Below are positions 54,057 through 64,000 of a DNA stretch of 64,000 nt, in pieces. The first letter of the stretch is position 1; the number at the start of each line of letters is the position of its first letter. The position numbers and the translations under genes are program-made. The DNA comes from Streptomyces ferrugineus (GTDB lineage: Bacteria; Actinomycetota; Actinomycetes; Streptomycetales; Streptomycetaceae): assembly GCF_015160855.1 (NCBI RefSeq), contig NZ_CP063373.1, forward strand, positions 4,340,001 through 4,404,000, written 5' to 3'. A model generated the notes under the pieces. It had not been told where the DNA came from and did no database searches. It worked only from the letters and a program-made list of their open reading frames with translations.

Positions 54057-54371
54057 CTATTCGATCTCGCGCATCATCTTCTCCATCGAGGACACCGACA
54101 GCCGGGTCTGCGTCAGCTCGTCCAGCGTCTGGCGCTGTTCGTCGGCCATGCGGCGCTGCAACTCCACGGTGTCCTCCAGGAGTTGGGCGTACTTCGCCGC
54201 GAGGTCCTGGTACTGCTGCTCGCGCGCGGCCAGCATCCGGGCCCGCCAGGTGGCGGCGACCTGCCAGACGATCACGATCAGCAGGGTGAAGAGCCCGGCC
54301 GCACCCACCGCCCCGACCACCGCACCCACGGTGTCGGCGCTGTCGGCGAGGGTCACCTGTTCCGCATTCAC
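54057..54371 (-). CDS. small membrane protein with coiled coil
   Basis: Unrecognised 104-residue protein: one N-terminal membrane helix (about 14-41, VGAVVGAVGAAGLFTLLIVI) and a long charged coiled coil (residues 45-104). It starts in an ATGA overlap with the ArsR-like gene, so the two are coupled. It could be a signalling or assembly partner of the MMPL exporter. Confidence 0.8.
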   Translation of the reverse strand: MNAEQVTLADSADTVGAVVGAVGAAGLFTLLIVIVWQVAATWRARMLAAREQQYQDLAAKYAQLLEDTVELQRRMADEQRQTLDELTQTRLSVSSMEKMMREIE

Positions 54372-54709
54372 TTCGCTTCCTCTTTCTCGGCCTCGGTGAG
54401 CGTCGCGGCCGCCCGGGCGATGACGTCGGGCGTCAACTCGTAGACGAACGGCGTGACGTCGAAGTACTTCATCGCCTTGCCGTCCTCCGCGAGTTCGAGC
54501 GTGCCGACGACCAGTCCCGCCGCCTCCAGCCGCTGGAGATGCATGTGCAGCAGGGGCCGGCTCATGCCGATCTCACGCGCCAGTGCGCTGACGTAGTTCC
54601 GGCGCTCCAGCAGCGCGCCGACGATCCGCATGCGGTGCGGGTTGCCGAGGGCGGTGAGCACCTTCAGCAACTCGTCGCCCGTCGGTGCCGGAGGCGGGAC
54701 CTCGGGCAT
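54368..54709 (-). CDS. ArsR-like winged-helix regulator
   Basis: Regulator of 113 residues with a helix-turn-helix ALAREIGMSRPLLHMHLQRLE (about 41-61) and a wing region LELAEDGKAMKYFDV. No Cys is present, so it is not a typical metal sensor. Its upstream region has two TGTCA-N8-TGACA sites, which suggests autoregulation of the whole unit. Confidence 0.88.
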   Translation of the reverse strand: MPEVPPPAPTGDELLKVLTALGNPHRMRIVGALLERRNYVSALAREIGMSRPLLHMHLQRLEAAGLVVGTLELAEDGKAMKYFDVTPFVYELTPDVIARAAATLTEAEKEEAK

Positions 54710-54939: not shown

Positions 54940-54952
54940 TAGGATCACGGCA
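54940..54952 (+). promoter_or_regulatory. -10 element placing the transcript start at the ATG
   Basis: TAGGAT at 54940-54945 ends six bases before the ATG at 54952, and no Shine-Dalgarno exists; the mRNA is likely leaderless. A clear -35 is not seen. Confidence 0.4.
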
Positions 54953-55413
54953 TGGTTACGGCTCGGTCGCCCCGGCGCATGGACCGGATCCGCTCTGATG
55001 CGGGTCCGTTGCTGCGCCTGCTGGCCTTCGCCGTGCTCCTGTTCGGCGTCCTGGTGACGCATGGCGTGCACGTGGAGAGCGTGCAGGGGCACCTGTCCAC
55101 CAGTGCGATGGCCGCTGCCGGTCCAGCGGCCGACGGGGCTCGCCATGGAGTCGTCGACCCCGTGCCGCAGTTCGCCGCGGAAGGCGACGTTCACCATGGC
55201 GGCGGCCATGAGTCGACGCAACCCGGTGAGCAGTGTGCGTCCGGGCAGCCCCAGCAGGGTTCCGCTCTGGCGCTGCCCTGCCTTGCAGCGTCGGTTCGCG
55301 CATCAGCCGGTGCCGATGACGCCTCGACCGTGCGCCTGTCCGCCGCCGATCGAGCCGTCGACGGGGCGTCACCAGCGGCGCTGAGAGCGGCCTCCGTGGT
55401 GCAGCAGGTCTAG
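54952..55413 (+). CDS. small exported or membrane protein, DUF6153-like
   Basis: Protein of 153 residues with a hydrophobic helix near residues 19-37 (LLRLLAFAVLLFGVLVTHGV) and an Ala/Ser/Gln-rich remainder with some His (DVHHGGGHES). It matches the general form of the DUF6153 proteins of streptomycetes. Function is unknown. It is followed by a second protein of similar layout. Confidence 0.65.
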   Translation: MVTARSPRRMDRIRSDAGPLLRLLAFAVLLFGVLVTHGVHVESVQGHLSTSAMAAAGPAADGARHGVVDPVPQFAAEGDVHHGGGHESTQPGEQCASGQPQQGSALALPCLAASVRASAGADDASTVRLSAADRAVDGASPAALRAASVVQQV

Positions 55414-55589: not shown

Positions 55590-56072
55590 GTGCCGACCCA
55601 CCCCCGTATGCCCGCGCACGCCCCGTGGGCCCCATGCGACTCATCCCGGTGGCGCCGATTCGTCTCGGCGATCCGCGCCGCGCTCGTCATGGTGTTCGTG
55701 CTGTGCGCCGTCATGCACGGTGTCGCCGAGGAGACGCACGCGTCGGCGTCCGTGCCCGCGGCTTCATCAGCGCTGAACTCGGGCGGCGAACCTCATGGGT
55801 CTCATGGACCTCATGGTCCTCACACCCCGCACGGCCCTCACGAGACCGAAGGATGCGTGGCGGACGCGTTCGTCCGTACCGCGGCCCAGTCCACGGAGGA
55901 GCTTTCCCTGGACCTGATGGCCGTGGCCCTGGCCGAGGCCCTGGCCGTGGCCGTGCTCGTCGCCCTGTCCGTGGCGCTGGGCAGACCCCTCCTGCGGCAT
56001 CAACTCCGCAGACGTCACAGCGCCCGCTCCGGCCGTGTCGCGCTCGTGCGCACATCGCGCTGGCGGATCTAG
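55590..56072 (+). CDS. small His-rich membrane protein
   Basis: Protein of 160 residues from GTG 55590, with GGAGG five bases upstream. A hydrophobic helix (about 30-48) is followed by a His/Gly/Pro run with repeats of HGPH (about residues 70-85) that could bind divalent metal, and a second hydrophobic segment (110-130). No family is recognised. Confidence 0.6.
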   Translation: MPTHPRMPAHAPWAPCDSSRWRRFVSAIRAALVMVFVLCAVMHGVAEETHASASVPAASSALNSGGEPHGSHGPHGPHTPHGPHETEGCVADAFVRTAAQSTEELSLDLMAVALAEALAVAVLVALSVALGRPLLRHQLRRRHSARSGRVALVRTSRWRI

Positions 56073-56213: not shown

Positions 56214-57299
56214 ATGCAGTCATTGACCAAGGCCGCGGTCACCTCGGGCCAGGCCGCCCTGTCCGGCCTGGTGGGCAACACCCCGCTGCTACGGGTGTCG
56301 GAGCCGCTGGCCCCGGCGGAGCGAGGCTTCTGGGCCAAGCTCGAGGGGTTCAACCCCGGCGGTATCAAGGACCGTCCGGGCCTGCACATGGTGGAGCGGG
56401 CCCGGGCCCGCGGAGACCTGCGGCCCGGCGGACGGATCATCGAGTCCACGAGCGGGACCCTCGGCCTGGGGCTGGCCCTGGCCGGGATGGTGTACGGCCA
56501 CCCCGTCACCCTGGTCACCGACCCGGGACTGGAGTTGTCCATGACCCGGCTGCTGACCGCGTACGGCGCCCAGGTCAACGTCGTCTCCGAGCCGCACCCC
56601 ACGGGCGGCTGGCAGCAGGCCCGCCGTGACCGCGTACAGCGGCTGCTGGAGCAGCACCCGGACTCCTGGTGTCCGGACCAGTACAACAACCCCGACAACG
56701 TCGCCGCCTACACCCCACTGGCCCTCGAACTCGCCTCCGAGATGGGCCACATCGACGTCCTGGTGTGCAGCGTGGGCACCGGCGGCCACTCCGCGGGAGT
56801 CTCCCGGGTGCTGCGCCAGCTCTACCCGGAGCTGACCGTCGTCGGCGTGGACACCACCGGTTCGACGATCTTCGGCCAGCCCGCCCGGCCCCGGCTGATG
56901 CGCGGACTCGGCTCCAGCATCCATCCCCGCAACGTCGCCTACGAGAACTTCAGCGAGGTGCACTGGGTCGCCCCGCACGAGGCGGTGTGGACCTGCCGCC
57001 AACTCGCCGCGTCCCACTACGCCACCGGCGGGTGGAGCGTCGGCGCCGTCGCGCTCGTGGCCGGCTGGCTGGCCCGGACCATGCCGGCCGACGCACGGAT
57101 CGTCGCCGTCTTCCCCGACGGCCCGCAGCGCTACCTGGGAACGGTCTACGACGACGACTACTGCACCGCCCACGGCCTGCTGAACTCCCCACCGGCACCC
57201 GAACCGGAACTGATCGGCCACCCGGACGAGAAGGAGGTCACCCGCTGGAGCCGGTGCACCACCGTGGTCGACCCCCTCACCGCGGAGGAGGCCCGGTGA
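56214..57299 (+). CDS. PLP-dependent cysteine-synthase-family enzyme
   Basis: Fold-type II PLP enzyme of 361 residues. The PLP Lys lies in [14 protein letters not shown] (about residue 52), with one residue fewer than the usual NPGGSxKDR. The substrate loop is [13 protein letters not shown] and the phosphate cup [10 protein letters not shown]. The protein has an extra C-terminal 40 residues. It overlaps the MFS gene by GTGA. Such synthase-exporter pairs could make and export a beta-substituted alanine, but the product is unknown. Confidence 0.88.
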
Positions 57300-58597
57300 A
57301 GGGGCTGATCCCGCAGGTGCGGTCGTACGAACGCAGCGTCCAGCTGTTGATGGTGAATCAGTTCACCATCAACCTCGGCTTCTACATGCTGATGCCCTAC
57401 CTCGCCGCGCACCTGTCCGGAACGCTCGGACTGGCCGGCTGGATCGTGGGACTCGTCCTCGGCGTACGCAACTTCAGCCAGCAGGGCATGTTCCTGGTCG
57501 GCGGCACGCTCGCCGACCGGCTCGGCTACAAGCCGCTGATCATCGCCGGATGTGTGCTGCGCACCCTCGGCTTCGCCACGCTCGGGCTGGTGGACTCGCT
57601 GCCCGCGCTGCTGGCCGCGTCCGCCGCCACCGGGCTGGCCGGAGCGCTGTTCAATCCGGCCGTCCGGGCGTACCTCGCGGCCGACGCGGGCGAGCGCAGG
57701 GTGGAGGCGTTCGCCCTGTTCAACGTGTTCTACCAGGCCGGCATCCTGCTGGGCCCGCTGGTGGGCATGGTGCTGACCGGAGTGGACTTCCGTATCACCT
57801 GCCTGGTGGCGGCCGGGATCTTCGCGCTGCTGAGCGTCGTACAGATCCGGGCCCTGCCCGCCCGGCGTGCCGAGGACGCCGGAGGGCGGGCGAGCGACGG
57901 CGGTCAGGGCGTGCTCGCCCAGTGGCGCGGCATCCTCGCCAACCGGCCGTTCCTGCTGTTCTCCGTCGCCATGATCGGCTCGTACGTCCTGTCCTTCCAG
58001 GTCTATCTGGCGCTGCCGCTTCAGGTGCGCCGGCTCGGCGGGGACGGGGAGTTCGGCACGGCGGCGGTGGCGGTGCTCTTCGCCGTGTCCGGGCTGAGCA
58101 CGATCCTGGGCCAGACGCGGGTGACGGCGTGGTGCAAGGCGCGGTACGAGCCGGGGCAGGCGCTCGTGCGAGGGCTGGCGGCGATGGGGCTGGCCTTCGT
58201 CCCCCTGCTGGCGGCCACCGCCGTGCCCGTACCGGAGTCCGGGGCCGGGCTGTGGCTGCTCGCGGCGGTTCCACCGACGCTCGCCGCACTGCTGCTGGCC
58301 GTAGGCACGATGATCGCCTACCCGTTCGAGATGGACACCATCGTCCGCCTCAGCGGTGACCGGCTCGTCGCCACCCACTACGGGCTGTACAACACGATCT
58401 GCGGTATCGGCATCACCGTCGGAAACCTGGGCACGGGCGCCGCGCTCGACGCCGCCCGCGCGGCCGGGACGCCCGCGCTGCCGTGGATCACACTCATCGC
58501 GCTGGGCCTGGCCTGCGCGGCCGCCCTGTACGGCCTGCACCGCACCGGCCGACTGGCGGCACCGCCCGCGTCCGAGCCGCTGCCGACGGCCGTCTGA
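57296..58597 (+). CDS. MFS transporter coupled to the PLP enzyme
   Basis: Membrane permease of 433 residues with 12 predicted helices; motif A-like sequence [14 protein letters not shown] near residue 65. It starts at GTG 57296, inside the PLP gene stop, which implies a tight functional pairing. Substrate unknown; export of the PLP enzyme product is the simplest guess. Confidence 0.9.
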
Positions 58598-58789: not shown

Positions 58790-59140
58790 ATGGATGCGTG
58801 GCAGCCGCTGTTGGTACTCCTCGGTGTGGTCGTCGCGGGCCTGGCCGCGCTCTACGGGCTGGGGTTGTGGCTGGCCGCCGACCGGACCCCGCTCGACAGC
58901 GGTCCGTTCTCGGGTGGTCTGGCGCCGGGCGAGCACGCGGTCTCCCGGTTCCATGTCCGCTGGTACGCGGTCACCATGATCTTTCTGGCCTTCGACATGG
59001 AGATGCTCTTCATGTACCCGTGGGTGAAGGTCGTGTCGGAGGTCGGGACCCCGGCGGTGGTCGAGATGTTCCTCTTCCTCGGCATCCTGTTCGCGGGCGT
59101 CGCGTACGCATGGCGTGAGGGGGCGCTCCGATGGACCTGA
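58790..59140 (+). CDS. nuoA: complex-I-like subunit A
   Basis: Membrane protein of 116 residues, three helices. It keeps RFHVRWYAVTMIFLAFDMEMLFMYPW (quoted only in part by family: RFxVRxY and FDxExxFxxPW). The loop before it reads LDSGPFSGGL, where canonical NuoA has YECG, so the loop Cys is absent. GGAGG lies ten bases upstream of the ATG. First gene of the operon; overlaps the next by ten bases. Confidence 0.9.
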   Translation: MDAWQPLLVLLGVVVAGLAALYGLGLWLAADRTPLDSGPFSGGLAPGEHAVSRFHVRWYAVTMIFLAFDMEMLFMYPWVKVVSEVGTPAVVEMFLFLGILFAGVAYAWREGALRWT

Positions 59141-60336
59141 GAACACGGCTGCGCAGCCGAGTCGCCCGTCGACCGAGGGTGTTCCACGTGGCGGTGCCGG
59201 GCGGCACCGAGGCGCGTCTCGGCGTCGAAGCCGAACTGCGGCTGCGGGGCTGGCCGGTGTCGGGCACACCCGCGGACGCCGATCTCCTGATCGTCTGCGG
59301 CACGCCGCGCCCGCACGACGCCGAGTGGCTCGACCGGCTGGAGGCCGGGATGCCGCAGCCCGCCGCGCGCGTCGTCGTACAGGGACCCGCACGGGCTGCG
59401 CAGGCCCTCGACACGGGGGCGGCGGCGCTCCTGACTCGACCCGCGCGAGCGCACAGCCACGAAGAGGCGCGTGGCGGCGGTCACGACGGTGGCCATGCCG
59501 ATCACATGGACCACGACATGCACGACATGCACGGCATGGGCGAGGTGGCCGGGTTGCCGATGGCGGAGCGGGCCGATGACCGGGACCAGCTCCGCCTCGA
59601 CCGGCTGCACCTACCGCTGGGGCCGGGGCTGGCCGACTGGCCCGCCGGGCTCGTCCTTCACCTCGCGCTGCAAGGCGACGTCGTACAGACCGTCGAGATC
59701 GGACAACTGCCGGTGCCGGAGGCCGGGTCGCCGTACTGGAACGAGCCCTGGCTGCGGGCCGCTCAGGGCGAGGAGATCGGGCGGGGCGTGGCGGCACGCC
59801 GGCGTTGCGCCGCGCATCTGGACAGCGTGGGCCGCTTCCTCGCCGTCGTCGGCTGGGAGGACGCCGCCGCGCGGTGCCGGCGGCTGCGGGACGAAATGCT
59901 GTCGGGCGCTTCACGCGAGTCCATCGGCGGGCGGCTGCGCGCCACGATGCGCAGGGTGGAGCGGTCGCGGACGCTGCGCTGGGGGACCGCGGGGCTGGGC
60001 GGGCTGTCGGCGCGGCGGGCGCGCTCGGCCGGGGTGACGGGGCCGGCGTCCGAGGCGGGCGGGGACGCCTATGACCGGCTGCGGGTCTGGCTGCGGGAGG
60101 TCGAGCGCGGTCTCGACGAGCTCGACGACGCGGAGCTGTTGGGCTCGGGGCACGTCCTGGTGGGCCCCCGTGGGCGGCTGGACGGCGAGCGGCCGCCGTC
60201 CCGGGCCCTGCTCGACGTCCTTCCGGAGTTGCTGACGGGCGCCGAGTTCGCCTGTGCGCGGATCATCCTGGCGAGCCTGGACCCCGACCTGGACGAGCTG
60301 GCGTTCGCGCCGACGGCCGGAGCGGCACATGGCTGA
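59131..60336 (+). CDS. unusual His/Met-rich protein in the position of NuoB-C-D
   Basis: I do not recognise the family of this 401-residue soluble protein. Residues 15-100 are a Rossmann-like segment reminiscent of NuoB (VFHVAVPGGTEARL, DADLLIVCGTPRP) but without the four Fe-S cysteines. Residues about 108-140 are a His/Met/Asp run with the patterns GGHADHMDHDMHDMHGMG, a likely copper or nickel site. Residues 150-260 recall short bits of NuoD (LALQGDVVQTVEI, HLDSVGRFLAVVGWEDAA). The C-terminus (320-400) is Glu/Leu-rich helical. It sits exactly where nuoB, C and D would stand, between nuoA and nuoH, overlapping both, so it is presumably an operon component of the complex. Confidence 0.7.
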   Translation: MDLRTRLRSRVARRPRVFHVAVPGGTEARLGVEAELRLRGWPVSGTPADADLLIVCGTPRPHDAEWLDRLEAGMPQPAARVVVQGPARAAQALDTGAAALLTRPARAHSHEEARGGGHDGGHADHMDHDMHDMHGMGEVAGLPMAERADDRDQLRLDRLHLPLGPGLADWPAGLVLHLALQGDVVQTVEIGQLPVPEAGSPYWNEPWLRAAQGEEIGRGVAARRRCAAHLDSVGRFLAVVGWEDAAARCRRLRDEMLSGASRESIGGRLRATMRRVERSRTLRWGTAGLGGLSARRARSAGVTGPASEAGGDAYDRLRVWLREVERGLDELDDAELLGSGHVLVGPRGRLDGERPPSRALLDVLPELLTGAEFACARIILASLDPDLDELAFAPTAGAAHG

Positions 60337-61273
60337 TGCGGCGCCCCTGTGGGCCACGGCCGTCCTGCCGGTGGCTCTGATCCTGGCCGCCGTGTGCGCG
60401 GCGGGCTTCGACGCCGTGCTGTCGGCGGCGGCCGAGCGCGGCCGGGCGGGGACGGTCCGCGAGATGGGCGTCCGAGCGGCGGCTCCGCTGCGCGAGGGCC
60501 TGCGGTTGCTGGCCCAGCAGCCCCGGCGTACGACCGCCGCCGACACCCTCCTCATCAGGCTGGGCGTGGCGCTGGTCCCGTTGGCCGCGGTGCTCGCCGG
60601 GGCGGTGCTGCCGTGGGGTTTCCGGTCGGTGAGCGATCCGTCCGTCGGCGTCGTGTGGTTCAACGCGATGGAGGCCCTGTCCTGGGCCGCGGTGTGGCTG
60701 GCCGGGTGGGGGCCGAACTCGGCGCTGTCACTGATCGGCGGCTACCGGTTCCTGGCGCAGGGCCTGGCGTACGAGCTGCCGCACATGTTCGCGATCACCA
60801 CCGCCGCCCTGGGCGCGGAGTCGCTACGGGTGGGGGAGGTGGTCGCGGCGCAGGACGGGCTGTGGTTCGTGGTGTGGATGCCCGCCGCGTTCGTCGTCTA
60901 TCTGCTGAGCGCGCTCGCGATGGCCTTCTGGGGGCCGTTGGGGCATCCGCTCTCCCGGGACGCGGCCGGGGGTGCGGCCGCGGAGCTGACCGGCGTGGAC
61001 CGGCTGGTGCTGCTGGGCGGGCGGTGGCTGCTGCTCGTGGTGACCGCCGGATTCAGCGTGCCGCTGTTCCTCGGCGGCGGGCACGGCCCGCTGCTGCCGG
61101 GCTGGGCGTGGACGCTGCTCAAGACCGCGGCCGTACTGGCGCTGCTCGTGGTGGGGCGCCGGCTGCTGCCCGTGCTGCGGATGGAGCGGTACATGGAGTC
61201 GGCGTGGCTGGTGCTGGTGCCGTTGACGCTGCTTCAGGCGCTGTTCGTCGCCGTCGTCGTCCTCAACCGATAA
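60329..61273 (+). CDS. nuoH: complex-I-like subunit H
   Basis: Membrane protein of 314 residues with about eight helices. It keeps the YELP helix motif (GLAYELPHMFAITTAALG) but not the acidic quinone-site loop, which normally reads like ETNRxPFDxxExExELVxGxxxEYSG; here the region is MAFWGPLGHPLSRDAAG with a single Asp. The N-terminal GPNRVG-type motif is also missing. The start ATG 60329 overlaps the preceding stop by eight bases. Confidence 0.85.
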   Translation: MADAAPLWATAVLPVALILAAVCAAGFDAVLSAAAERGRAGTVREMGVRAAAPLREGLRLLAQQPRRTTAADTLLIRLGVALVPLAAVLAGAVLPWGFRSVSDPSVGVVWFNAMEALSWAAVWLAGWGPNSALSLIGGYRFLAQGLAYELPHMFAITTAALGAESLRVGEVVAAQDGLWFVVWMPAAFVVYLLSALAMAFWGPLGHPLSRDAAGGAAAELTGVDRLVLLGGRWLLLVVTAGFSVPLFLGGGHGPLLPGWAWTLLKTAAVLALLVVGRRLLPVLRMERYMESAWLVLVPLTLLQALFVAVVVLNR

Positions 61274-61283
61274 GCGAGAGGCC

Positions 61284-61847
61284 ATGCTTGATGACGTGAT
61301 CTTCTGGGCGCTGGCACTGCTGGCGGTGGCCGCCGGCGTCATGGTCTTCCGGTTCGACTCCATGGCCCGGGCGACGTACGCGCTGCTGACCTCGCTGCTG
61401 TGCGTCGGTGGCGAGGTGCTGCTGCTCGGCCTCGACTACCTCGGGGTCGTGATCGTGCTGATGATGACCATCGAGATGGCCATCATGGCCGTGTTCATGG
61501 TGATGTACATGATGAACCCGGCCGGTCTCATGCCGATGACCATGGTGCACAACAAGAAGGGCGCGGCCGTGATCTGCGCGGCGGTCTTCGCCGTACTCGC
61601 CGCCGGAATCCTGCTCGCCCCGTGGCCCTCCCGGCGCGGCAGGGCGTCGGCCGATCCGACCAGGGACCTGGGCCGGTCGCTGATGGGGCCGCAGATGCTC
61701 ACCATGATGACCCTGGGCGTGGCCCTGTTCGCCACGATCGTCGTGACCGTCGTCCTGGCCACGCGGCGCGGTCGCTACGACCGGTTCGGCGACGACCTGA
61801 AGGCACGCACCGCCGACGACCCGGTACGGGGAGGGGTGGGCCGATGA
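61284..61847 (+). CDS. nuoJ: complex-I-like subunit J
   Basis: Membrane protein of 187 residues, five helices, with the central helix containing YLGVVIVLMMTIEMAIMAV, corresponding to the pi-bulge helix of NuoJ. The C-terminal loop has an extra 20-residue soluble stretch. It follows nuoH after 10 bp and overlaps nuoK by ATGA. No nuoI lies between H and J. Confidence 0.88.
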   Translation: MLDDVIFWALALLAVAAGVMVFRFDSMARATYALLTSLLCVGGEVLLLGLDYLGVVIVLMMTIEMAIMAVFMVMYMMNPAGLMPMTMVHNKKGAAVICAAVFAVLAAGILLAPWPSRRGRASADPTRDLGRSLMGPQMLTMMTLGVALFATIVVTVVLATRRGRYDRFGDDLKARTADDPVRGGVGR

Positions 61848-62149
61848 GCCTGGAACTGTTCCTGCTGCTCGCCGCCGCCCTGTTCAGCGTAGGGCTGTTC
61901 GGCGCGCTCACCCAGCAGTCGATCGTGATGCTGATGATGGGCCTGGAGCTGATGCTGGGCGGCGTCATCGTCGGCGCCGCGGCCGTCTGGCACCACATCG
62001 CTCCGGCAGCCGCCGACGGGCAGGTGCTGGTGGTCCTGGCGGTCACGGTCATGGCGGTGGAGATGGCCGTAGGGTTCGCCGTGGTGACGGCGCTGTTCCG
62101 GGCCCGTGAGGTCGACATGACCGACATGGCCGCGGAGTTGAAGGAGTGA
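61844..62149 (+). CDS. nuoK: complex-I-like subunit K
   Basis: Membrane protein of 101 residues, three helices. The two conserved membrane Glu residues are present (MLMMGLELMLGG and VTVMAVEMAVGF). It overlaps nuoJ and nuoL by ATGA and GTGA, which implies one coupled unit. Confidence 0.92.
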   Translation: MSLELFLLLAAALFSVGLFGALTQQSIVMLMMGLELMLGGVIVGAAAVWHHIAPAAADGQVLVVLAVTVMAVEMAVGFAVVTALFRAREVDMTDMAAELKE

Positions 62150-63984
62150 GCGCGCTGCTGTGGGCGCTCATCGCGCTGCCGCTCACGGTGGGAACGCTGC
62201 TGGCGGTCGCCGGCCGCCCGGCGGACCGGTACGCCCCAGGTGTCGCGGTCGGCACGGCCGTCGCCGCGCTCGGCCTCGCCGTCACGGTGGCGTTCGAGCA
62301 CCCGAGGGTCGAGGCGCCGCTGCTCGAAGGGCTCCCCGCCGGACTCGCGGTCGACGGCCTGTCGGGCCTCATGGCCGTGACCGTCACGGCGGTGACCGCG
62401 GCCGTCCTGCTGTTCAGCGTCGCGGACATCGGACCCGGCGAGGCGCGCGCCCGCTTCTTCGGGCTGATGCTGCTCTTCAGCGGGGCGATGCTGACGACGG
62501 TCACCGCGACCACGCTGCCGGTCCTGCTGATGGCGTGGGAGGTGATGGGCGCCACCTCCTGGGCGCTGATCGGCCACTGGTGGCGCGACCCCGAGCGAGG
62601 CGACGCCGCCAACACGGCCTTCCTCACCACCCGCGCCGCCGACCTGGGCCTCTACCTCGCCGCCGGGGCGGCGCTGGCGAGCGGACAGAGCGGTTCCCTC
62701 GCCGATCTCCCGCACGCGGCGGATCCGTGGCAGGCGCTCATCACCGCCGGAGTCATCGCGGCCGCCCTCGGCAAGTCGGCCCAACTGCCCTTCAGCTTCT
62801 GGCTGTCCAGGGCCATGCAGGGCCCGAGCCCGGTCTCCGCCCTGCTGCACTCGGCGACCATGGTCGTGGCCGGGGCGTATCTGCTGCTGCGGCTCGAACC
62901 CCTTCTCGCGCGGTCCGGTTGGGGCGGGCCCGTGGTGGCGTGGACCGGCGCGGTGACGGCGGTGGTGCTCGGCCTGGTCGCCGTGGCGCAGACCGACCTC
63001 AAACAGCTGCTCGCCGCCTCGACCTGCGCCCAGATCGGCTTCATGGTGCTCGCCGCGGGCGTGGGCGCGGTCACCGGCGGCACCCTGCAGCTCATCGCCC
63101 ACGCCGCCGTGAAGAGCCTGGCCTTCCTCGTCGCGGGCGCCTGGCTGACGGCCCTCGGCACCAAGGCACTGCCCGCCCTGCGCGGTGCGGCCCGACGGCA
63201 CCGTACGGCCGGGGTCACCTTCAGCGTCGCGGCCCTGGCGCTGGCCGGCGTCCCGCCCCTGGCCCTGTGGGCGGCCAAGGACGTACTCCTCGCCGGCGCC
63301 CTCGAGGACAACACGGCGCTCTACGGCATCGGACTGGCCGGCGCGGTGATCTCCGCGGTCTACAGCGCCAAGGCCCTGTGGTTCGTCTGGCAGCCCGCAC
63401 CTGACGACCATGAGGAACCGCTGCCGCGGGCCACCTGGCTGCCGCTCGTGATCCTGGCCGTCGCTTGCTTCGCCCTGACCGCCACGTCCTTCCCGCCCGT
63501 ACGCGACGCGATCCAGCGGGTGCTCGGCGGCCCGGCCCAACCGAGCCCGCATGCAGGGGAGTTCCTTCTGTCCGGTGCCCTCGCGGTCGCCGTCTCGGCC
63601 CTGGTCTGGGTTCGCGGCCCCCGGCTCCTCACCCTGCCCGGCCGGATCACCGCCTTCGCAGCGCAGTGGCTGCACCTGGAGACCGCCACGCAGGCGATCC
63701 TCGTACGCCCGGTCCTGCGCCTCGCCGACGCGCTCGCCGCCTTCGACGACCGGGTGCTGGACCGCGCCGTGGAGGGCACCGCCCGTAGCTCGGTCCGGCT
63801 GGCGCGGTGGACCGACGCCCGGGCGGAGCGCCTCGTCGACGGCGCCGTGGAAGGTGTGGCGGGCGGCGCCCGGGCGCTCGGCCGGTGGGCGCGCCGGCCG
63901 CAGACCGGGCAGCTGCACCAGTACCTCGCCCAGGCGGTCGTCGCCTTCACCGTCCTCGCCGTCCTCCTCGTCCTCGTGAGGTGA
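62146..63984 (+). CDS. nuoL: complex-I-like subunit L (antiporter-type)
   Basis: Membrane protein of 612 residues with 14-16 helices of the Mrp/NuoL antiporter family. Key charged residues are kept: Glu in LLMAWEVMGATSW, Lys in GKSAQLPFSFWLSRAMQGPS, His and Lys in AHAAVKSLAFLVAG. A C-terminal amphipathic stretch (about 520-590) may be the lateral helix, shorter than in the canonical subunit. Start is GTG 62146. Confidence 0.93.
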   Translation: MSALLWALIALPLTVGTLLAVAGRPADRYAPGVAVGTAVAALGLAVTVAFEHPRVEAPLLEGLPAGLAVDGLSGLMAVTVTAVTAAVLLFSVADIGPGEARARFFGLMLLFSGAMLTTVTATTLPVLLMAWEVMGATSWALIGHWWRDPERGDAANTAFLTTRAADLGLYLAAGAALASGQSGSLADLPHAADPWQALITAGVIAAALGKSAQLPFSFWLSRAMQGPSPVSALLHSATMVVAGAYLLLRLEPLLARSGWGGPVVAWTGAVTAVVLGLVAVAQTDLKQLLAASTCAQIGFMVLAAGVGAVTGGTLQLIAHAAVKSLAFLVAGAWLTALGTKALPALRGAARRHRTAGVTFSVAALALAGVPPLALWAAKDVLLAGALEDNTALYGIGLAGAVISAVYSAKALWFVWQPAPDDHEEPLPRATWLPLVILAVACFALTATSFPPVRDAIQRVLGGPAQPSPHAGEFLLSGALAVAVSALVWVRGPRLLTLPGRITAFAAQWLHLETATQAILVRPVLRLADALAAFDDRVLDRAVEGTARSSVRLARWTDARAERLVDGAVEGVAGGARALGRWARRPQTGQLHQYLAQAVVAFTVLAVLLVLVR

Positions 63985-64000
63985 CCGCCGTGCTCACGGC
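63981..64000 (+). CDS. nuoM: start of complex-I-like subunit M, cut by the window edge
   Basis: GTG at 63981 overlaps the nuoL stop as GTGA and opens a frame (MTAVLT) that leaves the window. Gene identity is inferred from the fixed order L-M-N and from the overlap pattern of the operon. Confidence 0.5.

Follow-up and report, generated by a model that had tools for sequence, protein, structure and literature searches.

We describe nuo3, an operon of Streptomyces ferrugineus that begins near the end of a 64,000-nucleotide stretch of the chromosome (contig NZ_CP063373.1, positions 4,340,001 to 4,404,000 of the forward strand), hereafter the window. That nuo3 encodes an eight-subunit relative of complex I which no longer performs redox chemistry is well supported by sequence and predicted fold. 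The system is very probably linked to copper, and we propose, with a probability of roughly 0.6, that it exports Cu(I) at the expense of an inward flow of protons, as suggested by its residues, its homologies and its genomic company.

A third nuo locus in Streptomyces ferrugineus

The nuo genes of the window are all encoded on the + strand, and neighbours overlap or lie at most 10 bp apart:

58790..59140, + strand: nuoA3, NuoA-like protein of 116 amino acids (Pfam PF00507, E 7.7e-26)
59131..60336, + strand: bd3, 401 amino acids; NuoB-like half at about residues 1-105, His/Met-rich linker, NuoD-like half at 154-392
60329..61273, + strand: nuoH3, 314 amino acids (Pfam PF00146, E 2.4e-39)
61284..61847, + strand: nuoJ3, 187 amino acids (Pfam PF00499, E 3.7e-13)
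61844..62149, + strand: nuoK3, 101 amino acids (Pfam PF00420, E 3e-12)
62146..63984, + strand: nuoL3, antiporter subunit of 612 amino acids (Pfam PF00361, E 2.9e-48)
63981..64000, + strand: first bases of nuoM3, which continues beyond the window

A previous sequence-only reading of the window had given the same gene order and coordinates, which held upon re-reading, and had proposed continuing past position 64000; there, nuoM3 (L008 5981-7498) and nuoN3 (L008 7495-8916) complete the operon. The membrane subunits A, H, J, K, L, M and N are thus all present, as identified by Pfam, NCBIfam and PDB matches. The same reading had held that the locus consists of membrane subunits only, the catalytic set being absent. 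This stands for C, E, F, G and I, none of which were seen within the nuo3 operon (E, F and G being the NADH-oxidising subunits), and fails for B and D, which are present as a fusion devoid of cofactor ligands. We refer to this fusion protein as BD.

The S. ferrugineus genome is a single contig of 9.96 Mb. The same chromosome carries a full nuo operon (nuo1) at 9.27-9.29 Mb (L009/L028), found by the search that had been suggested, and the known nuo2 cluster at 9.23-9.25 Mb (L010). The window operon is therefore the third nuo locus of this genome, and not the known second one of streptomycetes for which it had been taken. The second cluster is described as nuoA2, B2, D2, H2 to N2 in the literature (PMC3765725, PMC8388888), a gene content which the cluster at 9.23-9.25 Mb fits. 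A second NuoD-like gene (G000:C1:9478065-9478814) lies apart from the nuo2 cluster; a separate nuoD2 has been published for other streptomycetes.

Distribution and phylogeny of nuo3

A BD profile matched 22 of the 296 genomes of the class, and the full A-BD-H-J-K-L-M-N operon was found in 18, namely 17 of the matching genomes and the window genome, itself among the 22. The other matches comprised a lone fragment in G235 (L076 5705-6295), with no nuo3 membrane subunit found nearby, a canonical-type NuoD in G011, nothing recognisable in G232, and G034, which was left unopened. Within Streptomyces, BD occurred in 27 of 199 genomes, in at least one of them (G360) in fragments. A figure of 260 out of 396 genomes of the phylum (E 1e-3) was rejected as a nuo3 count, the listed matches being mostly short, confined to the NuoB-like stretch and taken for canonical NuoB.

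We assembled 35 loci: 17 found by peptide patterns, 17 from class genomes, and the window. Two of them (L019 and L059) belong to the same genome, leaving 34 distinct loci. The same eight genes occurred in the same order in 34 of the 35, the last one (L013) ending with its contig before nuoN. This agrees with the earlier suggestion of a maintained operon rather than a ruin. Judged by its sequence, the window copy is a regular member of this family. In a tree of NuoH, NuoL and NuoM together, all 18 nuo3 sequences grouped to the exclusion of nuo1 and nuo2 (SH-aLRT 100, stem 0.94). There, nuo2 sat on a separate long branch, on the side of the nuo3 stem that also bears nuo1.

The same gene order is found in different actinobacterial families, and plasmids from two phyla carry it as well. 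Plasmid records matched NuoJ3 (20), BD (15) and the Halomonas NuoJ (31), amounting to 33 different records. Their genera include Pseudonocardia, Curtobacterium, Arthrobacter, Rhodococcus, Gordonia, Mycobacterium and Rubrobacter, as well as Halomonas, Roseivivax, Acuticoccus, Sulfitobacter and Paracoccus. Fourteen records were opened, chosen for taxonomic spread; among these was Arthrobacter FB24, a metal-resistant strain. By annotation and position, the eight genes were present in 12 of the 14, one of the others having an insertion sequence within bd3 and one being poorly annotated.

A NuoB-NuoD fusion without cofactor ligands

The 401 amino acid protein is a fusion of NuoB and NuoD with a His/Met-rich linker, an identity derived from profiles and predicted folds. 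The NuoB-like half was folded alone, because structure matches of the whole protein were filled by the NuoD half. The NuoD-like C-terminal half aligned weakly with NuoD in a shallow hhalign comparison (E 0.0011, probability 21) and the Pfam NuoD match of the protein was sub-threshold (E 0.068), so that this assignment rests on structure. A bactofilin, the lone match among PDB sequences (E 0.073), was judged to be due to chance.

The features required for redox chemistry appear to be gone from BD. The cysteine ligands of the N2 [4Fe-4S] cluster displayed no conservation, the best cysteine column reaching 9 of 18 sequences, and the BD of Acuticoccus, as annotated, has no cysteine at all. The quinone motif GPQHPSTHG of NuoD is replaced by GPxLPxWPAG. 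The linker is predicted to be disordered.

Some BD genes stood out individually. The proteins at the BD position in Rubrobacter (L180 10895-13057) and Sulfitobacter (L188 10108-12069) are annotated with heavy metal-binding domains, and the former displays two CPMHPEV...CGMDL repeats. An IS3 element lies inside bd3 of a Pseudarthrobacter plasmid (L185 11263-12425), one Streptomyces genome holds two BD copies on different contigs (G446 C41 and C137), and the BD frames of two genomes of family f36 (G977 C7 and G890 C1) contain one internal stop codon each.

Most antiporter residues persist in a membrane arm whose core has gained methionines

We compared nuo3 with canonical nuo1 from the same 18 genomes. 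As had been noted from the window, the charged and histidine residues of the membrane are kept: Glu132, Lys210, His235, His319, Lys323 and Lys378 of NuoL in 18/18 genomes, along with Asp166, and in NuoK Glu35 in 18/18 and Glu73 in 17/18. NuoM keeps Lys223, Lys254, His347 and Glu406, and NuoN keeps Lys159 and Lys388. Meanwhile, NuoH has lost 32 of the polar or aromatic residues conserved in nuo1, kept 12 and gained Arg231. NuoA has lost the YECG motif of the loop between its first two transmembrane helices, retains Asp69 and Glu71, and displays the new invariant residues His55, Met72 and Met75.

Residues newly fixed in nuo3 are methionines in 22 out of 112 cases in subunits A, H, J and K versus 4 out of 199 in L, M and N (Fisher 1.5e-7), and NuoJ alone accounts for 14 out of 44. 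A stretch of 30 residues in NuoJ, covering transmembrane helix 3 (TMH3) and the following loop, holds 11-13 methionines in nuo3 versus 2-4 in nuo1. A pattern search for NuoJ of nuo2 returned no candidate, and this comparison is hence one of nuo3 against nuo1. Within TMH3 the residues form a ladder of Met60, 61, 65, 68, 72, 76 and 77 together with Glu64, followed by Met85, Met87, His89 and Met134/138/141. Across 28 copies (the 18 genomes and ten plasmid copies, three of them proteobacterial), invariant residues were Met27, 60, 61, 65, 68, 72, 76, 77, 85, 87 and 138, Glu64 and His89 in NuoJ; Met29, 31, 32, 70 and 74 in NuoK; and Met72, 75 and 93 and His55 in NuoA.

Copper genes and CsoR operators accompany nuo3

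When at most four called genes to either side of nuo3 were considered, 23 of the 35 loci (23 of 34 distinct) had a copper gene as a neighbour; among 20 stretches picked at random from these genomes, one held a copper family, DUF326 (Fisher 4.4e-6). Flanking genes were called by codon usage, and the families counted were CopZ/HMA, CopA, DUF305, multicopper oxidase, CsoR and DUF326. For the window locus, one upstream gene entered the count, as L008 begins near nuoA; the region farther upstream was checked separately. Pfam annotation of 220 of the 232 flanking genes (10 were dropped for size and 2 more long ones omitted) returned HMA (22), DUF305 (10) and multicopper oxidase (5), together with metal-sensing repressors (3/107), DUF326 (2/107) and tyrosinase (2/113). 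None of these families was among the 25 commonest of 120 control genes, the last of which had two members.

The plasmids provided annotations independent of our own gene calls. Copper genes were present in the 13-16 kb flanks of 9 of the 14 opened copies. The Halomonas flank encodes CopC, CopD, a two-component system, a copper-resistance multicopper oxidase and CopB; in Roseivivax, CueR and a P-type ATPase lie directly 3' of nuoN; in Curtobacterium, CopZ and a P-type ATPase lie just 5' of nuoA; and the Rubrobacter plasmid carries a P-type ATPase, a CsoR-type regulator and a copper-binding protein.

The operator of streptomycete CsoR is given as ATATACCCCTNAGGGGTATAT, with a TAC-N9-GTA core (PMC3902906). 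Perfect TACCC-N5-GGGTA cores were found within 300 bp before nuoA in 11 of the 35 loci (10 of 34 distinct), and the same core occurred once in 643 kb of control sequence, made up of 20 random and 17 canonical nuo stretches. In L020, L023, L026, L027, L205 and the Curtobacterium plasmid, nuoA stands behind copA on the same strand at a distance of 81-160 bp, which suggests a copZ-copA-nuo3 unit in some loci; in L016 and L021 copA lies on the strand opposite to nuoA.

Several little-known families, DUF305, DUF5134, DUF4142, F510_1955-like and DUF6153-like, also recur beside nuo3. We regard them as candidates for functions in copper metabolism.

Independence from complex I

Canonical NuoB and NuoD were found in all 18 carriers of the first set. 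We discarded this co-occurrence as uninformative because 278 of the 296 class genomes have NuoD. A match to PF00346 was likewise found in 28 of 29 further genomes with BD (21 of 21 near-complete ones), some of these matches being BD itself.

A more telling case was family f36, most of whose genomes in the class sample have no NuoD. BD matched at E 1e-15 or better in 17 of its 299 genomes; 14 of these matches reached E 1e-48 or lower, and the other three covered the N-terminal half only. All 17 carriers are at least 93% complete. No NuoD match was found in 15 of the 17 (12 of the 14 with strong BD matches), and the other two displayed a distant match only (77-85 bits). In the ten f36 loci examined, the NuoJ ladder was present in 10/10, copper genes in 6/10 and a perfect CsoR core at some point along the 16-19 kb read in 8/10; the gene caller had missed BD in two of these loci and NuoH in one. 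Autonomy of nuo3 from complex I is well supported, since 15 of the 17 f36 carriers have no NuoD match. Catalytic subunits encoded elsewhere that assemble with nuo3, which would have told against the sequence-only reading, are thus missing where this could be judged, NuoF not having been searched genome-wide.

Proposed mechanism and alternative explanations

That reading had considered a pump or leak driven by something other than NADH, or coupled to the His/Met-rich subunit. Our results support this, and the driving partner that it left unnamed is one for which the evidence points to copper. Under the mechanism that we favour, CopZ would perhaps deliver Cu(I) to BD, the His/Met-rich subunit in the cytosol. 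The ion would then enter the methionine ladder of NuoJ TMH3 and NuoK and emerge on the outside close to NuoJ TMH5, following the path taken by Na+ in the NuoJ/NuoK-homologous parts of Mrp. Protons moving inward through L, M and N would pay for this movement, making the complex a Cu+/H+ antiporter. We give even odds to the broader proposition that a complex I-type machine was turned from electron-driven proton pumping into proton-driven Cu(I) export. Here, the redox arm would have become a cofactor-less copper receptor and the E-channel a methionine-lined copper path, with the antiporter subunits as the motor, and the system would have spread on plasmids within copper-resistance islands of two phyla, working without complex I.

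A number of observations weigh against proton-driven copper export. In NuoM, Asp139 replaces Glu in 18/18 genomes. In NuoN, Leu135 replaces Glu in 17/18, at the position which the alignment gives as the TMH5 glutamate. The coupling would therefore not be identical to that of Mrp or complex I. The TMH3 ladder was not clearly confined to one helical face (p 0.09). The His/Met-rich linker occurs in most BD members and is absent from Roseivivax and Acuticoccus, which have the NuoJ ladder despite this. The seed proteins for the copper count were drawn from the flanks themselves, and the peptide patterns that retrieved 17 of the loci included linker peptides. No copper gene was found in the flanks of 5 of the 14 opened plasmids (Rhodococcus, Gordonia, Pseudarthrobacter, Vreelandella and Paracoccus), and 9 of the 34 distinct loci, the window included, have neither a called copper neighbour nor a core with up to one mismatch before nuoA. 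At the window locus itself, no recognised copper family was found among the neighbours and no CsoR core within one mismatch, and a ZnuA-type protein and a P-type ATPase are encoded a few genes downstream of nuoN3 (L008 11124-15789). Finally, the choice of export over import is derived from the neighbouring genes.

Import of Cu(I), with the methionine path leading inward to feed multicopper oxidases, tyrosinase or cytochrome oxidase, would fit the multicopper oxidase and tyrosinase genes among the neighbours. We consider it unlikely, as the company consists mainly of export and resistance genes (CopA, CopZ, CsoR, CopB, CueR) and genes under a CsoR operator are those switched on by surplus copper. 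Similarly improbable is a copper-gated proton channel or sensor, in which Cu(I) would gate the passage of protons through L, M and N without itself being carried across; one use of this could be to preserve the proton motive force during copper stress. Such a gate could explain why antiporter residues are kept around a relined core, as well as the copper genes and CsoR sites, but at least seven invariant methionines in NuoJ TMH3, added to those of NuoK and NuoA, exceed the needs of a sensor. Methionine sites also bind Ag+, and this, the ZnuA-type protein and P-type ATPase downstream of the window copy and the nine loci lacking copper genes and cores would suit a system for another soft or transition metal (Ag+, Zn2+ or several) with copper as only one of its substrates. 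The dominance of copper-specific regulators and partners at the other loci leaves little room for it.

Two further explanations would keep nuo3 within respiration. It is very unlikely that copper bound to the BD linker replaces cluster N2 and delivers electrons to quinone: BD does keep the NuoB and NuoD folds and mostly has the His/Met-rich linker, but it lacks the quinone motif, many conserved residues of NuoH are missing, the linker is predicted to be disordered and is missing in some members, and the operon encodes no electron donor subunit. That nuo3 serves the cell's own canonical complex I as a reserve or alternative membrane arm is nearly refuted. The presence of canonical NuoB and NuoD in every first-set carrier, which would speak for it, equals the base rate, and against it stand the f36 carriers lacking NuoD, the degenerate NuoH cavity and BD itself, which would fill the place of NuoB and NuoD.

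Other genes around the window operon

Directly before nuoA3 are a cysteine-synthase-like pyridoxal phosphate enzyme and an MFS transporter (window 56214-58597); MFS genes related to the latter also occur near nuo3 in L012 and L014. An ArsR-type regulator is encoded farther upstream (window 54368-54709, - strand). Two small open reading frames on the + strand (54952-55413 and 55590-56072) had no Pfam match, and the second has a His-rich stretch. They were not called at full length by the codon-usage caller and may resemble small Met/His proteins found after nuoN3 elsewhere.

Implications

Among the entries listed by a literature search over titles and the beginnings of abstracts (few subscription papers, no bioRxiv), there was no description of this operon and no link between complex I subunits and copper transport, which is weak evidence of novelty. 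The known substrates of the complex I superfamily are protons, Na+ and inorganic carbon; a copper branch, if true, would extend this range and establish a novel kind of copper-resistance determinant. The nuo3 genes are annotated today as 'NADH-quinone oxidoreductase' and 'hypothetical protein', and surveys of genomes can mistake them for complex I. They are also of relevance to an open question of bioenergetics, namely by what means an event in the peripheral arm is coupled to distant antiporters through the E-channel and NuoJ TMH3. With redox chemistry removed and an ion path seemingly in its place, nuo3 could allow this coupling to be studied without quinone.

Comparison with known systems

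Complex I (NDH-1, e.g. nuo1) shares with nuo3 the homologous subunits A, H, J, K, L, M and N, the NuoB and NuoD folds and, largely, the proton-path residues of the antiporters. Unlike complex I, nuo3 has no C, E, F, G or I subunits, no N2 cysteines and no quinone motif; its NuoH cavity is degenerate, its NuoJ, NuoK and NuoA are relined with Met/His, and it occurs in a copper context and in genomes without NuoD. The nuo2 cluster is, like nuo3, an additional nuo cluster without the N-module in the same genus, as far as described (PMC3765725, PMC8388888). Inspection by eye of L010 revealed a NuoB2 with cysteines, which nuo3 does not have, and a NuoC-like protein.

The Mrp Na+/H+ antiporter is, like nuo3, a non-redox system with antiporter-like subunits and NuoK-like (MrpC) and NuoJ-like (MrpA C-terminal) parts. 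Its Na+ path is described as running past E706, at the position of NuoJ Tyr59, and between histidines of the NuoK homologue and the adjoining antiporter, with an exit along the last helix of the NuoJ homologue (PMC7419157). By alignment, the nuo3 methionines would lie in the parts that carry this path: the position of MrpA E706 corresponds to Met61 of nuo3 NuoJ in 28/28 copies, and the new invariant Glu64 follows three residues on. Unlike Mrp, nuo3 has NuoA, NuoH, BD and three antiporter-like subunits, and the best matches of its M and N are NuoM and NuoN. No Pfam match to MrpB, E, F or G was found among the six window genes, with no dedicated search of the genome. In the DAB inorganic carbon transporter, a NuoL-like DabB has DabA as its partner; NuoL3 also matched DabB2 (E 1.9e-22), far more weakly than NuoL (E 9.7e-54).

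Membrane-bound hydrogenases, MBS and formate hydrogenlyase resemble nuo3 in placing NuoB/NuoD-like subunits on a complex I-like membrane module, and BD also matches their large and small subunits. They differ from nuo3, which has no conserved BD cysteines and displays a copper context, three antiporter subunits and NuoA. As for the metal and Fe-S cysteines of group 4 [NiFe] hydrogenases and Ehr, no BD cysteine column rises above 9 of 18.

Among copper transporters, CTR1 offers Cu(I) an MxxxM helix. The folds of CTR1, CusA and the P1B-ATPases are not known to be related to the complex I type, and their subunit make-up differs from that of nuo3. Copper-transporting P1B-ATPases share its genetic company (CopA, CopZ, CsoR). 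CusA, of a family of proton-driven antiporters, is described as moving Cu(I) by a methionine ladder (PMC7558416), which is reminiscent of the ladder in NuoJ of nuo3.

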